Source of the DNA: an uncultured Lentisphaerota bacterium
Lineage (GTDB): Bacteria > Verrucomicrobiota > Kiritimatiellia > CAIQIC01
Length of the DNA: 64,000 nucleotides
Assembly: GCA_903889245.1 (NCBI GenBank)
Contig: CAISWQ010000029.1
Location: 1-64,000, forward strand
Direction of reading: 5' to 3'
Each line of letters opens with the position of its first letter. Position 1 is the stretch's first letter. The notes under the pieces are model-generated. The model saw only the letters and a program-made list of their open reading frames with translations, did not search any database and was not told where the DNA came from. The position numbers and the translations under genes were made by a program. Shown here piece by piece: positions 5,370 through 60,923 of this stretch.

Positions 5370-5398
5370 AAACTAGCACGCTTGGCGCGGCTTTCCAA
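5370..5398 (-). promoter_or_regulatory. possible menI promoter built on the 19-bp palindrome
   Basis: On the minus strand TTGGAA, the right half of the palindrome, is followed after exactly 17 bases by TAGTTT. The -10-like element ends only 6 bases before the ATG, so the transcript would be nearly leaderless. The -10 match is weak (three of six). Confidence 0.35.
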
Positions 5399-5440
5399 GG
5401 CTTGGAAAAAACCGCGCGGATTTTTCCAAGCCTTGGAAAA
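5391..5440. repeat. 19-bp palindrome cluster, 2 copies
   Basis: Two near-perfect copies of TTTTCCAAG(G/C)CTTGGAAAA lie 30 bp apart, separated by ACCGCGCGGA, itself nearly palindromic. They occupy the gap between the menI start and the 3' end of the FHA gene. Confidence 0.95.
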
Positions 5441-10570: not shown

Positions 10571-11503
10571 ATGAAACATAGCGTGTTGTGGTTGGCGGTG
10601 GCGCTCGCGGCGGTCGGCGCGCGGGCGGCGGAACTGAAAATCGCGGAAGTGCCGGCGCAGGCGAAGTGGGTCGCGCACCTCGACGCCGAGAAGTTGCGCG
10701 CGTCGCAGGTCGGCCAGAAGCTGCTCGCGGAAATCCAGGCCGATGCCAAGGCGACCGCGCAGTTGAACGCGGTCCAGAATGCCGTCGGTGTGGACCTGCG
10801 CAAGGATATCAGCGACCTGACGCTTGGCGGGGGCGACGACAAGAAGAACCACGGCGTCATGATCGTTCGCGGCCCGTTCAACACGGAGAAGCTGCTCGTG
10901 GCGCTGCGCGCCAACCCGCAGCACGAGGAACTGGCCGAGGGCGACGCCTCCTATCACAAGTGGTTTGACAAGGGCCACGACAACTTCGGCGCCTTTCTCC
11001 CCGGCGGCCGCTGCGTCTTCAGCGAGAACCGCGAGGCCGCCAAGACGACGGCCGATGTCATCCGCACCGGCCAGGGTGGCCTCACGCCCGAGAGCGCGCT
11101 TGGCAGGCTTGCCAAGGAAGGGGCCGGTTGCATCATCTTTGCCGCGGTGGATGGCGGCGAAGGCCTGCCCGGCGATAAGCAGCCGCAGGCCGCCGTGCTG
11201 CGCAAGATCACCGCCGCCGCGCTGCGCGTGACGGAAAACGCCGGCCGCGTGCAGGGCGAGCTCGCCGTACAGGTGGCCACCGCCGAGGACGCCGTGCGTA
11301 TCGCCGAGATCGTGCGCGGCCTGATCGCGCTGGGCCTGCTCAACGAGGACATGCCGCCGGCCGTCGCCCGCCTGGCGCAGACCGCGCAGGTGAAGCAGGA
11401 CGGCCAGAAGATCAAGGTGCTGGTCAGTTGTCCGCCCGAGGATGTGTTACAATTCCTCAAGAACAAACGTGGACAACCCAAGGACCAGACCAGCGCCTTC
11501 TGA
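10571..11503 (+). CDS. secreted protein of unknown function, upstream of ECF sigma factor
   Basis: A 310-residue protein with a clear signal peptide (MKHSVLWLAVALAAVGARA, cleavage near residue 19-20). The mature part is mixed alpha/beta without cysteine clusters or enzyme motifs I recognise. It resembles DUF3352-like secreted proteins only loosely. An AGGAG ribosome site precedes the ATG. Its 3' end overlaps the proposed start of the sigma-factor gene, so the protein may belong to the same signalling unit, for instance as a target or sensor; that is inference. Confidence 0.7.
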   Translation: MKHSVLWLAVALAAVGARAAELKIAEVPAQAKWVAHLDAEKLRASQVGQKLLAEIQADAKATAQLNAVQNAVGVDLRKDISDLTLGGGDDKKNHGVMIVRGPFNTEKLLVALRANPQHEELAEGDASYHKWFDKGHDNFGAFLPGGRCVFSENREAAKTTADVIRTGQGGLTPESALGRLAKEGAGCIIFAAVDGGEGLPGDKQPQAAVLRKITAAALRVTENAGRVQGELAVQVATAEDAVRIAEIVRGLIALGLLNEDMPPAVARLAQTAQVKQDGQKIKVLVSCPPEDVLQFLKNKRGQPKDQTSAF

Positions 11504-12086
11504 TGGTGCGGTGGACGAGGGCCTGCTTGTGCAGCGTGCGCAGGCCGGCTGCGCCGCGAGTTTTGCGCAGCTTGTCGCGCTGTTTACGCCGCGGCTGCTG
11601 CGGTTTCTCGAACGCCGCACCGGCCGCCGCCACGACGCCGAGGACCTGGTGCAGGAGACGTGGGTACGCGCCTACCGCTACCTGCACCGTTTCCAGCGCG
11701 GTCGCAGTTTCGCTGCGTGGCTGTGGACGATCGCCGCACGGCTCAATGCCAGCCGCCGCCGGAAAAAGGCGCTGCCGCTCGCCGAGTGGAACGACGACAT
11801 CGCCGCCGCGGGGCCCGATGCCGCGCAGCAGCTCGCCGCGGCGGAAAGCGGCGCGGGCCTGTGGGCGCTGGCGGCGCGCGTGTTGCGGCCGGCGCAGCGT
11901 GAGGCGCTGTGGTTGTTCTATGTCGAGGAACTGTCCGTGAAAGAAACCGCGAAAATCCTGGGACTGACGACCATCGGCGCCAAGGTGCTGCTGCACCGCG
12001 CGCGCCGCCGGCTCGGCGTCGCCCTGCGGCAGCAGGCCGGGGGCGAGGCGCCGCTGCTCGCCTGGCAGGAAGGAGCGCGCCCATGA
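11442..12086 (+). CDS. ECF-family RNA polymerase sigma factor
   Basis: A sigma-70 family regulator of extracytoplasmic-function type. Region 2 reads RRTGRRHDAEDLVQETWVRAYRYLHRFQRGRSFAAWLWTIA in pieces: DAEDLVQETW and FAAWLWTIA are diagnostic. Region 4 shows LRPAQREALWLFYVEELSVKETA followed by the helix-turn-helix. Start candidates are ATG 11,442, GTG 11,469 and GTG 11,511; the family usually begins just before DEGLLVQRAQAG, so a shorter protein is possible. The stop overlaps the anti-sigma start by four bases. Confidence 0.9.
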   Translation: MCYNSSRTNVDNPRTRPAPSDGAVDEGLLVQRAQAGCAASFAQLVALFTPRLLRFLERRTGRRHDAEDLVQETWVRAYRYLHRFQRGRSFAAWLWTIAARLNASRRRKKALPLAEWNDDIAAAGPDAAQQLAAAESGAGLWALAARVLRPAQREALWLFYVEELSVKETAKILGLTTIGAKVLLHRARRRLGVALRQQAGGEAPLLAWQEGARP

Positions 12087-12667
12087 TCTGCTGGTATCAC
12101 CGCTGGCAACTCTCCCGCGCCGCCGATGCGCGCCGCGCCGCGCCGCCCGCCACGCAGGCGCACCTCGCCGGGTGCGAGGCCTGCCGCGATTACGCCGCGC
12201 TCTGTACGCGCCTGCCGCGCGCCCTCGCCGTGCCCGCGCCGCCGGACACCGCCTGGCTCGAACAAAAAATTCTTTCGCAGACCACCCGCGCGCCGGCCAC
12301 TTCCGAGGCTTGGAAAAACCGCGCGGAAATTTTCCAGGGCGTGGGAAAAAATCCGTGGGCTTTTCCAAGTCTTGGAAAAACCGCCGGAATTTTTTCCAAG
12401 CCTTGGAAATCCGCGCTGGCCGCCGCCGTGCTGCTGCTCCTTGCGGCCTTCGGCTGGCAGCAATGGCGCGCCGCGCAGGTGGAGCAGCGGCTCGCCGCCC
12501 TCCAGACGATGCGGAAGATCTACGACTCCGCCGCCGCGGTGGTCAGCCCGGCGGCGCTCCAAAACCAGGTTTCCTCCCAGGCGCAGCAACTCGCGGAAGA
12601 GGCCGCCGCCACCGTGAAGGCGCTCGGCAGTTTGCTGCCCAGCGCCGCGCTGCCCAGCAGCACCTGA
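12083..12667 (+). CDS. zf-HC2 anti-sigma factor with palindrome-derived insert
   Basis: A 194-residue probable anti-sigma factor, coupled to the sigma gene by an ATGA overlap. It carries the zinc-binding anti-sigma motif HxxxCxxC (His27, Cys31, Cys34), one transmembrane helix at about 110-125 and a periplasmic, helix-rich tail. Between the zinc domain and the membrane helix, residues 74-110 are encoded entirely by four copies of the 19-bp palindrome. Copies are read in different frames, as SEAWK, IFQGVGK, FPSLGK and FSKPWK. The insert adds lysines on the expected cytoplasmic side. No stop or frameshift results, so the gene appears functional. Confidence 0.8.
   Translation: MICWYHRWQLSRAADARRAAPPATQAHLAGCEACRDYAALCTRLPRALAVPAPPDTAWLEQKILSQTTRAPATSEAWKNRAEIFQGVGKNPWAFPSLGKTAGIFSKPWKSALAAAVLLLLAAFGWQQWRAAQVEQRLAALQTMRKIYDSAAAVVSPAALQNQVSSQAQQLAEEAAATVKALGSLLPSAALPSST
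12299..12410. repeat. 19-bp palindrome cluster inside the anti-sigma gene, 4 copies
   Basis: Four copies at about 30-bp spacing. The third (TTTTCCAAGTCTTGGAAAA) and fourth are nearly perfect. The second, with GGGCGTGGG in the centre, carries an extra base. All are translated in the host gene without interrupting it. Confidence 0.95.
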
Positions 12668-16318: not shown

Positions 16319-16347
16319 CTTATAGCCCGCGCGCGCCGGTTTTCCAA
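16319..16347 (-). promoter_or_regulatory. probable promoter of eda-kdgK-GH78, -35 inside the palindrome
   Basis: On the minus strand TTGGAA, the right half of a perfect palindrome copy, is separated by exactly 17 bases from TATAAG. TATAAG matches the -10 consensus at five of six positions and TTGGAA matches the -35 at four. The predicted start leaves a leader of about 25 bases with a ribosome site. Confidence 0.5.
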
Positions 16348-16446
16348 GCCTTGGAAAAGCCGCGCGCTGAATTTCCAAGGATGGGAAGGTTTCACGGCGG
16401 ACTTTTCCAAGGCTTGGAAAAAATTGGTGCATGGTTTCCAAGGTGC
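16340..16446. repeat. 19-bp palindrome cluster, 3 copies and a half site
   Basis: Perfect copies begin at 16,340 and 16,403. A degenerate copy (TTTCCAAGGATGGGAAGG) starts near 16,371 and a half site (GGTTTCCAAGG) near 16,434. Spacing is about 31 bp. The cluster fills the DNA between eda and the SRP RNA gene. Confidence 0.9.
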
Positions 16447-16460
16447 GGACATCTTCGCCG

Positions 16461-23545: not shown

Positions 23546-23654
23546 TTTCCAAGCATTGGACAGCTGAGCCCGCGTTTTTCCAAGCCTTGGAAAACTTCAC
23601 GGACATATTTCCGCGACTTGGACTTTTCAGGAAATTTTTTCCGAGCCTTGGAAA
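23546..23654. repeat. 19-bp palindrome cluster, 4 copies
   Basis: Copies at about 23,546 (centre AAGCATT), 23,575 (perfect), 23,606 (degenerate, CCGCGACTTGG) and 23,635 (CCGAGCCTTGG), each about 30 bp apart. The cluster fills the space between the convergent 3D-domain and kinase genes. Confidence 0.92.
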
Positions 23655-28697: not shown

Positions 28698-28727
28698 AGA
28701 GCGGGGGACGAGTGGTGAGGGGTGGCG

Positions 28728-28837
28728 TCCAAGGATTGGGGAAATTTCCCTTCGGATTTCCGAGGCTTGGAAAAGTTCGGACGTCTTTTCCCCGGGCCTT
28801 GGAAAACGGCGGCCGGTTTTTCCCCAAGGCTTGGAAC
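28728..28837. repeat. 19-bp palindrome cluster, 4 copies
   Basis: Copies begin at about 28,728, 28,757, 28,786 and 28,817, 29-31 bp apart. The last two carry extra Cs in the left arm. With the tRNA promoter they occupy the region between tsaD and tRNA-Gly; I see nothing else there. Confidence 0.9.
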
Positions 28838-36733: not shown

Positions 36734-36879
36734 GTTCCAAGCCTTGGCAGCCGGTACGGGCGGTTGTTCCGAGGCTTGGAACAAAAGGATGTTCCCTTTT
36801 CCAAGGCTTGGAAATTCCGGCGCGCTCTCTTTCCAAGGCTTGGAAAAACCAGCCGGATTTTTTCCAAGGCTCGGAAAAG
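36734..36879. repeat. 19-bp palindrome cluster, 5 copies
   Basis: The largest cluster. Copies begin near 36,734, 36,764 (TTGTTCCGAGGCTTGGAACAA, symmetric outward), 36,797, 36,829 and 36,858. Spacing is 29-33 bp. It lies between the secretin stop and the exonuclease start. Confidence 0.95.
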
Positions 36880-37840: not shown

Positions 37841-39886
37841 ATGCTTCAACGGCTCACATTCTGGCTCCTGGTAACGGCGCTGCTCGCGCTGTTCGCCGCC
37901 GGCCTCGGCGCGCGCCGCTATATCCTCGACGCGCAACGCGACCTCGCCGATGGCAACCTGCCGTTCACCCTCGAGGGCGCGATTCATTTTCACCGCCTCC
38001 AGCAGTTGCTCGCCGAGGGCCGCCTGCCCGCGGTGGATCACAACCTCGAGTTCCCGCGCGGCATCCGCGTCAGCGCCACCGACACGGTGGCCGATACCTG
38101 GCTGCTCGCCGCCATGAGCAAGCTGTTCCCCGCCGCCGTGCCGCTGGCCGAGCGCGTGCGCTGGAGCGAGGTGGTCTGGTTCTGCCTGGGCATTCCGCTG
38201 CTCGCGCTCTGGCTGCGCCTGACGACGCGTTCGTGGTGGGCGGGACTCGCCGCGGCCGCGCTCTACGCGGTCTCGCTCGCGAGCGTGATCCGCTCGACCG
38301 GGCAGGAAATCTCGCACGAGAATTTCGCGCTGCCGCTGTTGCTCGCCGCGCTGGCTGCCGGCGCGTGGGCGTTGCGGGCCGGGCCGCGCGGGTCGTTCCT
38401 GCGGCGCGCGCTGCTCTCCGCCGCGCTGCTGGCGCTGGCGCAGATGACCTGGGACCTGGTCCAGTTCTTCGTCTTCCTCTGGGCGCTCTGGCTCGGCGGC
38501 CGCGCGCTCTCCGGTCGCGCCGGCCTGACGCCGGGCGAGGCGGGCCTGGCGTGGCTGCAGTTCGGCGCGCTCGTGCTGGCCGGCGCCGTGAATCCCTATT
38601 TGCGGAGTCACGGCTATCTCTATTCCCTGCCGCTGCTGCTGGCGTTCGGCGCGCTGCTGGCCGACCGCGCCCGCCAGCTTGTCCAAGGATTGGAAAACAA
38701 CGCGGCCGGTTTTTCCAAGGTTTGGAAAAGCCGCCTGCTGCTGCTGGTCATCGCGCTGGCACCCGTCGTCGTCGGCCTGCTGCTGGCGCGGACCTACGGC
38801 TCGGCCTACAGCCACTTCGGCGAGTTGCTCGTGGCCAAGCTGCGCTTCCTCAACGTCAAGCCCGAGGACCCGGCGCTGCTGACCTTCAACCAGCGCATCC
38901 TCTGGGTGCCGGCGCTGCACTCGGCGACATGGAGTTTGACATTCCATCTGTTTCCGGCCATATTCGCCGCGTCGTTGATCGCGCTGGCCTGTCTGGTCCG
39001 CCGCAAGGACGAAGACCAAAACTCCAATCTAACGCTGCTGGTGATCGGTTGTGTCGTTTCCTTCATCGGCTACTGGTTCTTCGTCCGGTTGCACGTGTTC
39101 ACCGTGCTGTTCCTGGCGGCGCTGCTGGGCGCGTGGGTCGGCTGGGCGGTGCGGCGTGGCGCCTGGGTGCGGTCGGCGGTCGGCGTGACGCTGGTGCTGA
39201 CGTTGGTGGCGGAAGCCGGGAATGCCATCCGGCGGCCGGAAGAGCAGGGGCGGTTGAGCGTGTATTACCGTGAGCTGAACGCGCTGACCGACTGGCTGCA
39301 GAAGAACGCGGCACCGGAGCCGGTGCTGGCGAACTTCGGCGTGAGCGCGGCGCTCGTCACCTACGGCCGGTGCCCGGTGCTGCTGCATCCGAAGTTCGAG
39401 ACGCCGTGGATCCGCGAGCGCGTCCGGCGGTATGCCGAGGCGCTGTTCAAGGGCACCGAGGTGGAATTCCGTGACTGGGCGGAGCTGGAAGGCGCGTCCT
39501 ACTACGTGCACTCGCTGGGCGAGTATGCCAGCGTCGGGTTGAACCAGCAGTTGCGTTACATGGTGGATGCGCTTCAGCCGCGCACCGATACGGCAGCGTG
39601 GCTGTTCGAGCGTGCGCCGCAGCAGTTGCGGCTGTTCACGCAGGTCTGGGGCAACGCCAAGTATCGCGTGTTCCGCATCCACCGCAGCGACGATGCGGAA
39701 CTGGCCAACGAACAGGCCGAGGCCGCCGAGCGCGCGCTGCAAAGCGGCCAGCTTGATCGCGCCGAGCGCCTGGCCGTCCAGGTGCTCGTGCGGGCGCCGG
39801 ATAACAGCCGCGCGCAAACCGTATTGCGGCATGTGATCTCGTTGCGTAACCAGGGTTTTGGTGCAAAGCGTGAACCGGAAAAATGA
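37841..39886 (+). CDS. polytopic GT-C/STT3-like membrane protein with palindrome-derived insert
   Basis: A 681-residue protein with about ten to twelve transmembrane helices and a C-terminal soluble domain. The first external loop (EGAIHFHRLQQLLAEGRLPAVDHNLEFPRG, in pieces) and GQEISHENFALPL recall STT3-type oligosaccharyltransferases and other GT-C enzymes. I cannot prove the catalytic DxD-type site. The C-terminus ends in a TPR-like helical pair (ANEQAEAAERALQSGQLDRAERLAVQVL). Residues 279-297 come from two palindrome copies, read LVQGLEN and FSKVWK, in the loop between two helices. It starts two bases after the exonuclease stop. Confidence 0.6.
   Translation: MLQRLTFWLLVTALLALFAAGLGARRYILDAQRDLADGNLPFTLEGAIHFHRLQQLLAEGRLPAVDHNLEFPRGIRVSATDTVADTWLLAAMSKLFPAAVPLAERVRWSEVVWFCLGIPLLALWLRLTTRSWWAGLAAAALYAVSLASVIRSTGQEISHENFALPLLLAALAAGAWALRAGPRGSFLRRALLSAALLALAQMTWDLVQFFVFLWALWLGGRALSGRAGLTPGEAGLAWLQFGALVLAGAVNPYLRSHGYLYSLPLLLAFGALLADRARQLVQGLENNAAGFSKVWKSRLLLLVIALAPVVVGLLLARTYGSAYSHFGELLVAKLRFLNVKPEDPALLTFNQRILWVPALHSATWSLTFHLFPAIFAASLIALACLVRRKDEDQNSNLTLLVIGCVVSFIGYWFFVRLHVFTVLFLAALLGAWVGWAVRRGAWVRSAVGVTLVLTLVAEAGNAIRRPEEQGRLSVYYRELNALTDWLQKNAAPEPVLANFGVSAALVTYGRCPVLLHPKFETPWIRERVRRYAEALFKGTEVEFRDWAELEGASYYVHSLGEYASVGLNQQLRYMVDALQPRTDTAAWLFERAPQQLRLFTQVWGNAKYRVFRIHRSDDAELANEQAEAAERALQSGQLDRAERLAVQVLVRAPDNSRAQTVLRHVISLRNQGFGAKREPEK
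38678..38729. repeat. 19-bp palindrome pair inside the STT3-like gene
   Basis: Two copies, TGTCCAAGGATTGGAAAA and TTTTTCCAAGGTTTGGAAAAG, 32 bp apart, both read through in frame. They lie in a predicted loop flanked by hydrophobic helices. Confidence 0.9.
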
Positions 39887-42022: not shown

Positions 42023-42101
42023 TTTCCAGGCCTTGGAAAAAATCGCGTGAGATTTTCCAAGGCTTGGAAAAACCGGCGGGTGCGGTTTCCAATCTTTGGA
42101 A
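42023..42101. repeat. 19-bp palindrome cluster, 3 copies
   Basis: Copies begin at about 42,023 (touching the rho stop), 42,053 (perfect) and 42,084 (TTTCCAATCTTTGGAA), 30-31 bp apart. They fill the whole 93-bp gap to the methyltransferase start. Confidence 0.93.
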
Positions 42102-42115
42102 GCAGGCGCGCGAAC

Positions 42116-44991: not shown

Positions 44992-45041
44992 GTTCCAAGG
45001 CTTGGAAAAATCCGCGTGGCAATTTCCAAGGCTTGGAAATA
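44992..45041. repeat. 19-bp palindrome pair
   Basis: GTTCCAAGGCTTGGAAAAA and AATTTCCAAGGCTTGGAAAT, 29 bp apart. The 328-bp gap between the AraC gene and the first oxidoreductase holds these, the two hairpins that follow, and nothing else I can name. Confidence 0.93.
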
Positions 45042-50992: not shown

Positions 50993-51107
50993 TTTTTCCA
51001 GGGCTTGGAAAATTTTCGGTCTGTTTTTCCAAGCCTTGGAAAAGTTGGCGCCGAAATCGTCCAATCCTTGGAAAAAACGGCCGGTCCCCATTCCAATCCC
51101 TGGAAAA
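50993..51107. repeat. 19-bp palindrome cluster, 4 copies
   Basis: Copies begin near 50,993, 51,023 (perfect), 51,059 and 51,088 (CCAATCCCTGG). Spacing is 30, 36 and 29 bp. Two copies share the same right flank, GGAAAAGTTGGCGC, as if duplicated together. Confidence 0.92.
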
Positions 51108-55181: not shown

Positions 55182-55261
55182 GTTTCCAAGGATTGGAAAG
55201 TGATACGCCCGCTTTGTCCAAGCCTTGGAAAATTTCGGGAGGGTTTTCCAAGGCTTGGAAA
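55182..55261. repeat. 19-bp palindrome cluster, 3 copies
   Basis: Copies begin near 55,182 (centre AAGGATT), 55,212 and 55,242 (perfect), spaced exactly 30 bp, between the convergent ends of parC and the EF-hand gene. Confidence 0.94.
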
Positions 55262-60872: not shown

Positions 60873-60923
60873 TTTTCCAAGCCTTGGAAAAACCGGGGTC
60901 GGGGGCTTCCAATCCCTGGAAAA
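60873..60923. repeat. 19-bp palindrome pair
   Basis: TTTTCCAAGCCTTGGAAAA (perfect) and CTTCCAATCCCTGGAAAA, 32 bp apart, with GC-rich flanks ending CCGCGCGCGCGGG. Confidence 0.93.

Follow-up and report, generated by a model that had tools for sequence, protein, structure and literature searches.

Evenly spaced arrays of helically phased palindromes in a Verrucomicrobiota genome, one of them translated within an anti-sigma-like gene

The stretch of DNA analysed in this work (the window, 64,000 nucleotides) carries an ECF sigma factor gene (Pfam Sigma70_r2, E=3e-16) that overlaps by 4 bp the start of an anti-sigma-like ORF (Table 1). An earlier note on this DNA had called the product of this ORF a zf-HC2 anti-sigma factor, and this holds in part: the Pfam zf-HC2 match is sub-threshold (E=0.031, 14.8 bits), so the anti-sigma label rests on the adjacent sigma gene, an HxxxCxxC motif and a membrane helix. 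Four copies of the 17-bp palindrome TTTCCAAGNCTTGGAAA were located where that note had placed them (12300-12409, coding approximately residues 73-110), with the HxxxCxxC motif on one side and the hydrophobic helix on the other, and successive copies start at steps of 31, 31 and 31 bp. As had also been noticed, the copies are translated in different frames (SEAWK / FQGVGK / FPSLGK / FSKPWK), because 31 mod 3 = 1. The palindrome codons CCA, AGT, CTT and GGA are rare in the genome. The SEAWK...FSKPWK peptide results secondarily from the repeated DNA palindrome. Over the window as a whole, 35 matches to the palindrome at ≤3 mismatches were found versus 0.08 expected from shuffling.

Table 1. Positions of the operon genes, palindrome units and arrays in the window
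Feature	Position	Strand	Description
ECF sigma factor gene	11442..12086	+	Sigma70_r2, r4_2; 4-bp overlap with anti-sigma start
Anti-sigma-like ORF	12083..12667	+	194 aa; ATG 12083; HxxxCxxC motif, array-bearing linker, membrane helix
Palindrome unit 1	12300..12316	.	CTTCCGAGGCTTGGAAA; 2 mismatches
Palindrome unit 2	12331..12347	.	TTTCCAGGGCGTGGGAA; 3 mismatches
Palindrome unit 3	12362..12378	.	TTTCCAAGTCTTGGAAA; exact; codes FPSLGK
Palindrome unit 4	12393..12409	.	TTTCCAAGCCTTGGAAA; exact; codes FSKPWK
Intergenic array	5392..5439	.	2 units
Intergenic array	16341..16451	.	4 units, divergent gap
Intergenic array	23546..23654	.	4 units, fills convergent gap
Intergenic array	28726..28837	.	3-4 units
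Intergenic array	36734..36877	.	5 units
Intragenic array	38680..38728	.	2 units, within ORF 37841-39886
Intergenic array	42023..42102	.	3 units
Intergenic array	44992..45039	.	2 units
Intergenic array	50995..51106	.	4 units
Intergenic array	55183..55261	.	3 units, convergent gap
Intergenic array	60874..60922	.	2 units

Orthologues of the sigma/anti-sigma operon were found in two congeneric genomes, G003 and G002 (ECF sigma identity 67% / 63%), in stretches where arrays are sparse (three over 83 kb, and a single one over 21 kb), and in each of them one array lies in the anti-sigma gene at the position matching that in the window. Both orthologues carry three units at 32+31 bp versus the four at 31x3 in the window, unit 2 of which falls within a 10-codon stretch missing from both; the resulting 30-bp difference in array length is in frame, as the tolerance for spacings of 31 or 32 bp permits. 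At the palindrome bases, the window gene shares 80-82% identity with the two orthologues, versus 64% over the rest of the gene. No array-free anti-sigma orthologue was found among those located (G003 and G002), so that at this one locus the array may have originated by insertion. Peptide and palindromes occur together in both, in agreement with the derivation of the peptide from the DNA repeat proposed in the earlier note, and the observation named there as contradicting it, an orthologue keeping the peptide without the palindromes, was seen in neither.

Arrays were surveyed in a 1.56 Mb sample of the 5.26 Mb genome (125 contigs), in which genes called with a home-made codon-model caller made up 87% of the sequence. 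The sample contained 285 arrays, from which a genome total of about 900-950 was extrapolated; genome-wide, exact copies of the palindrome numbered 701, and the reversed-pattern control gave 0. Arrays comprised two units in 121 cases, three in 59, four in 60, five in 18 and six in 1, with a single recognisable unit in the remaining 26 (in the congener G001, in 42/120 arrays). Successive units were spaced by 31 bp (290 cases), 32 bp (171), 30 bp (15) or other distances (about 20), a distribution best fitted by ~10.4-10.5 bp per turn, so that 31/32 bp corresponds to three helical turns. The conserved part of an array is the 17-19-bp palindrome, with a CC/GG core 99% conserved and ~30 bits per site. 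The spacers between units are GC-rich, less self-complementary than expected and essentially unrelated across arrays; a slight excess of similar pairs among them may reflect occasional unit or array copying. The two arms of the palindrome vary independently (56 double changes versus 48 expected). Together, the unconserved spacers and independently varying arms point to dimer-binding-like sites on one face of the DNA, not to a hairpin element. In two relatives, neighbouring units with nearly identical spacers (G007:C1:94390-94466 and G009:C1:7134-7241) suggest that arrays may in some lineages grow via tandem duplication of a 31-bp unit.

Arrays of the sample were mostly intergenic (242 of 285, 85%), with 29 inside ORFs and 14 partially so. 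Occupancy was 48/132 in convergent and 37/124 in divergent gaps when all sizes were counted, and 18/23 versus 3/23 in gaps of 100-150 bp; arrays in tandem gaps lean toward the upstream stop codon, and only 3/224 occupied gaps hold two arrays. Spacing was compared with a null of random gaps matched for orientation and size (2000 draws). Array-to-array intervals of <1.5 kb made up 1.7% of those observed versus 14.6 ± 2.5% expected (0/2000 null draws); in G001 the effect was weaker (15.1% versus 26.7% expected, p=0.004). Arrays inside genes kept a greater distance from other arrays than did random intragenic points (p=0.01; multi-unit arrays p=0.002). Position is also conserved between genomes: among gaps with conserved flanking genes compared in G000 and G001, 6 carried an array in both, 1+1 were discordant and 17 carried one in neither (Fisher p=2.6e-4). 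Array-free stretches of >14 kb are mostly of lower GC, and one is a prophage; this element (contig C29:65760-80733, just past the window) is a 15-kb array-free segment of lower GC with terminase, portal, head protease and major head protein genes.

Within coding sequence, a Pfam scan of ten array-bearing ORFs placed most arrays at leader or interdomain junctions. Two sulfatase genes (L202:7799-9274 and L204:506-2149) each have a two-unit array at residues 20-37, in the segment that joins the leader peptide to the catalytic domain. Array-bearing genes were aligned to homologues of known structure, and four could be aligned across the array; a 48-bp two-unit array, if inserted, would add ~16 residues. 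An RluD-like synthase showed no gap (0 residues), an amidohydrolase a one-residue difference, CinA a three-residue difference and a GH51 arabinofuranosidase a net difference of 0-1 residue. Three other genes with intragenic arrays had no PDB relatives, and the array of NuoG lies just past the alignable part, outside the comparison. Differences of 0-3 residues in the four alignable genes indicate that arrays can form by substitution within existing codons, and this substitution-type fit counts against transposition, or an element like the Rickettsia palindromic elements, as the main route.

For a survey of the window's Verrucomicrobiota class, 346 genomes were searched for TTCCAANNNTTGGAA occurring twice at 31/32 bp with a free centre. 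Matches were found in 70/346 genomes, with up to 1103 pairs per genome, and reversed-pattern controls were all 0; where a name is given, the matches are metagenome assemblies of uncultured 'Lentisphaerae' and 'Verrucomicrobia'. The centre of the palindrome is specific to the lineage (GNC, TCA/TGA or others), and GNC-centred arrays had no match in the sampled genomes of the phylum's other classes. The TGA-centred palindrome of relatives such as G009 and G013 (TTC CAA TGA) contains a stop in one of its frames; the absence of stops from every frame, which the earlier note had reported, is thus true of the G/C-centred form in the window and not family-wide. Loss within genera is frequent (from 0 to 80 pairs within f19, and from 0 to 79 within genus g34 of f10). 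Viral contigs gave 18 exact matches, all single and none in 31/32-bp pairs; viral carriage was rejected, since by our own estimate 18 single hits is about the chance number for a collection of this size. No published description of these phased repeats was found in the open literature (subscription journals were outside the scope of the search), to which the phenomenon therefore appears to be new.

The explanation we prefer, and to which we give an even chance of being right, is that the arrays are phased docking sites for a putative sequence-specific DNA-binding protein, probably a nucleoid-organising one. Each 17-19-bp palindrome would take one protein dimer, and palindromes three helical turns apart would align the dimers on one face of the DNA, where they could oligomerise and so wrap or bridge the DNA about every 5.5 kb. 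The simplest role for such a system would be nucleoid organisation or global regulation, and palindromy, phasing and even spacing in combination favour a role of this kind. Sites would be made and maintained through point substitution, mostly in intergenic DNA away from start codons, with gene linkers and other tolerant stretches used where no good gap lies nearby; the anti-sigma linker would be one such tolerant place, its peptide following as a by-product. An Lrp/AsnC gene (e.g. G000:C71:48027-48251) is nearly universal in the class, usually in single copy, and equally present in array-free genomes, which leaves an Lrp/AsnC protein as no more than a candidate; for the same reason, Lrp was dropped as a presence/absence marker, being nearly universal and thus uninformative. 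A Noc-like ParB paralogue was rejected, as the genome has a single ParB_N hit. Several observations speak against docking sites: Lrp is found equally in array-free genomes, the arrays are patchy even within genera, which would be unusual for a core nucleoid system, a single recognisable unit makes up 42/120 arrays of G001, and their association with ComEC (see below) is not something this explanation predicts.

That association bears on the main rival account, which we regard as possible though somewhat unlikely and in which the arrays would act as DNA uptake sequences. Phased palindromes would be preferred by the competence machinery, and biased uptake followed by recombination would fix the point mutations that build sites. 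Known uptake sequences arise by point mutation and not by insertion, favour non-coding DNA and show a somewhat more regular distribution than random placement would give (PMC1626085, PMC1939737), and the arrays resemble them in all three respects; the lineage-specific centres recall dialects, the patchiness would also fit, and a prophage is among the array-free stretches. Within the window's family, ComEC was found in G000, G001 and G002 (432, 212 and 238 pairs), while G003 (45 pairs), G004 (1) and G005 (0) gave no match, although these absences come from incomplete genomes. Class-wide, ComEC frames are long (~630-900 aa) or short (~515-610 aa) by clade, and the short-form clades are array-poor. 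Among the ComEC matches listed, a frame of at least 630 aa occurs in 27/28 array-rich genomes, the frame of the single exception starting 42 bases from a contig end, and ~74 genomes with frames of at most ~610 aa are array-poor (all counts by eye); this class-wide pattern is, however, confounded by phylogeny. Moreover, many genomes with long ComEC lack arrays, G113 combines 82 pairs with no canonical ComEC hit, and DprA is retained in G003-G005, where ComEC was not found, for which reason it was dropped as a separating marker. Known uptake sequences are also short and non-palindromic single-copy motifs with no need of phased multiples (PMC1939737), whereas the arrays consist of palindromes, mostly several of them at 31/32 bp. 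In another genome of the class, G037, the ComEC match (C1:1409676-1410500) continues through TAG at three in-frame positions, and the match to DprA is divided among frames, a pattern that could possibly reflect TAG recoding or decay.

Spread as mobile repeats fares less well. We consider it improbable that the arrays are REP/BIME-like repeats dispersed by a RAYT (Y1-type) transposase: they are interspersed, intergenic and biased to gene 3' ends, and the excess of similar spacers hints at copying, but the palindrome alone is conserved, its arms do not covary, and arrays sit over conserved coding sequence without insertion. The genome has two weak Y1_Tnp matches, neither with multi-unit arrays within about 1.5 kb, and a RAYT was rejected on these grounds. 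The earlier note had likened the array to the Rickettsia palindromic elements, inserts that add a peptide to proteins, while judging its sequence unrelated to theirs; the second point is correct, and the first we now regard as highly improbable. The in-frame translation of arrays in 29 ORFs, the anti-sigma gene among them, and a unit number in that gene that varies between species by an in-frame 30 bp, would suit such an insert. Against it, conservation is confined to 17-19 bp with no conserved 100-150 bp element, most arrays are intergenic, and insertion was rejected for all four (4/4) alignable genes, which differ from their homologues by 0-3 residues and not ~16. That the arrays act at gene ends as bidirectional terminators of transcription or as RNA stability elements, to which the enrichment in convergent gaps and near stop codons might point, is very unlikely, and selection for hairpins or terminators was rejected, given the many arrays in divergent gaps and inside ORFs, the lack of compensatory changes between arms and a 31/32-bp spacing that has no role in termination.

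Across the class, we propose with about equal belief and doubt that the arrays constitute an undescribed form of genome-marking, placed every ~5 kb, that would either organise the nucleoid through an oligomerising protein, as in the docking-site explanation, or make up a third kind of DNA uptake sequence, independent and new in structure, with self-DNA recognised through helically phased dimers. If the arrays organise the chromosome, evenly spaced anchor sites could be read straight from sequence, even over genes; if they are uptake sequences, the sequence-specific uptake of Pasteurellaceae and Neisseriaceae would have re-evolved in a distant phylum with another motif design. Either way, one Verrucomicrobiota class supplies natural gains and losses, as well as dialects, with which to test why short repeats fill genomes, and annotators should treat FPSLGK / FQGLEK / FSKPWK peptides in these genomes as DNA-driven.

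Among known systems, REPs likewise form intergenic palindrome clusters close to gene ends, but they form hairpins, spread through insertion and are associated with RAYTs, whereas the arrays have independently varying arms and no insertion was seen. HIP1 of cyanobacteria is a highly iterated palindrome said to spread by substitution; unlike the arrays, it is a single 8-mer, GCGATCGC, far denser and without phased arrays. CRISPR loci differ in that the arrays have spacers of 14-15 bp and are short, dispersed and estimated in the hundreds. The Rickettsia palindromic elements, which are ~150 bp long and inserted (PMC10969869), share with the arrays the translation of palindromic DNA within unrelated proteins, and differ from their 17-19-bp units of fixed phase fitted by substitution. 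With the Haemophilus USS and Neisseria DUS, the arrays have in common hundreds of copies in coding and non-coding DNA, a point-mutation origin, regularity and dialects (PMC1626085, PMC1939737); those sequences are, however, 9-12 bp, non-palindromic and without any need of helical phasing. Non-palindromy and imperfect evenness have been given as the reasons why the Haemophilus and Neisseria sequences are unlike intracellular or chromosome-compacting sites (PMC1939737), and on both counts the present arrays are the opposite. The Lrp/AsnC clusters (Ss-LrpB, BarR, E. coli Lrp) also consist of dimer palindromes of ~15 bp with multiple sites in a row: three Ss-LrpB dimers wrap ~100 bp of DNA (PMC2995911), and BarR has as its motif a semi-palindrome of 15 bp (PMC4977709). 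By geometry alone, units of 17-19 bp at 31/32 bp likewise present dimer-size palindromes on one face of the DNA. The motifs of the Lrp/AsnC proteins, in contrast, are relaxed and their targets number between a few and some hundred, versus an extrapolated ~900 arrays with a strong consensus and even spacing.
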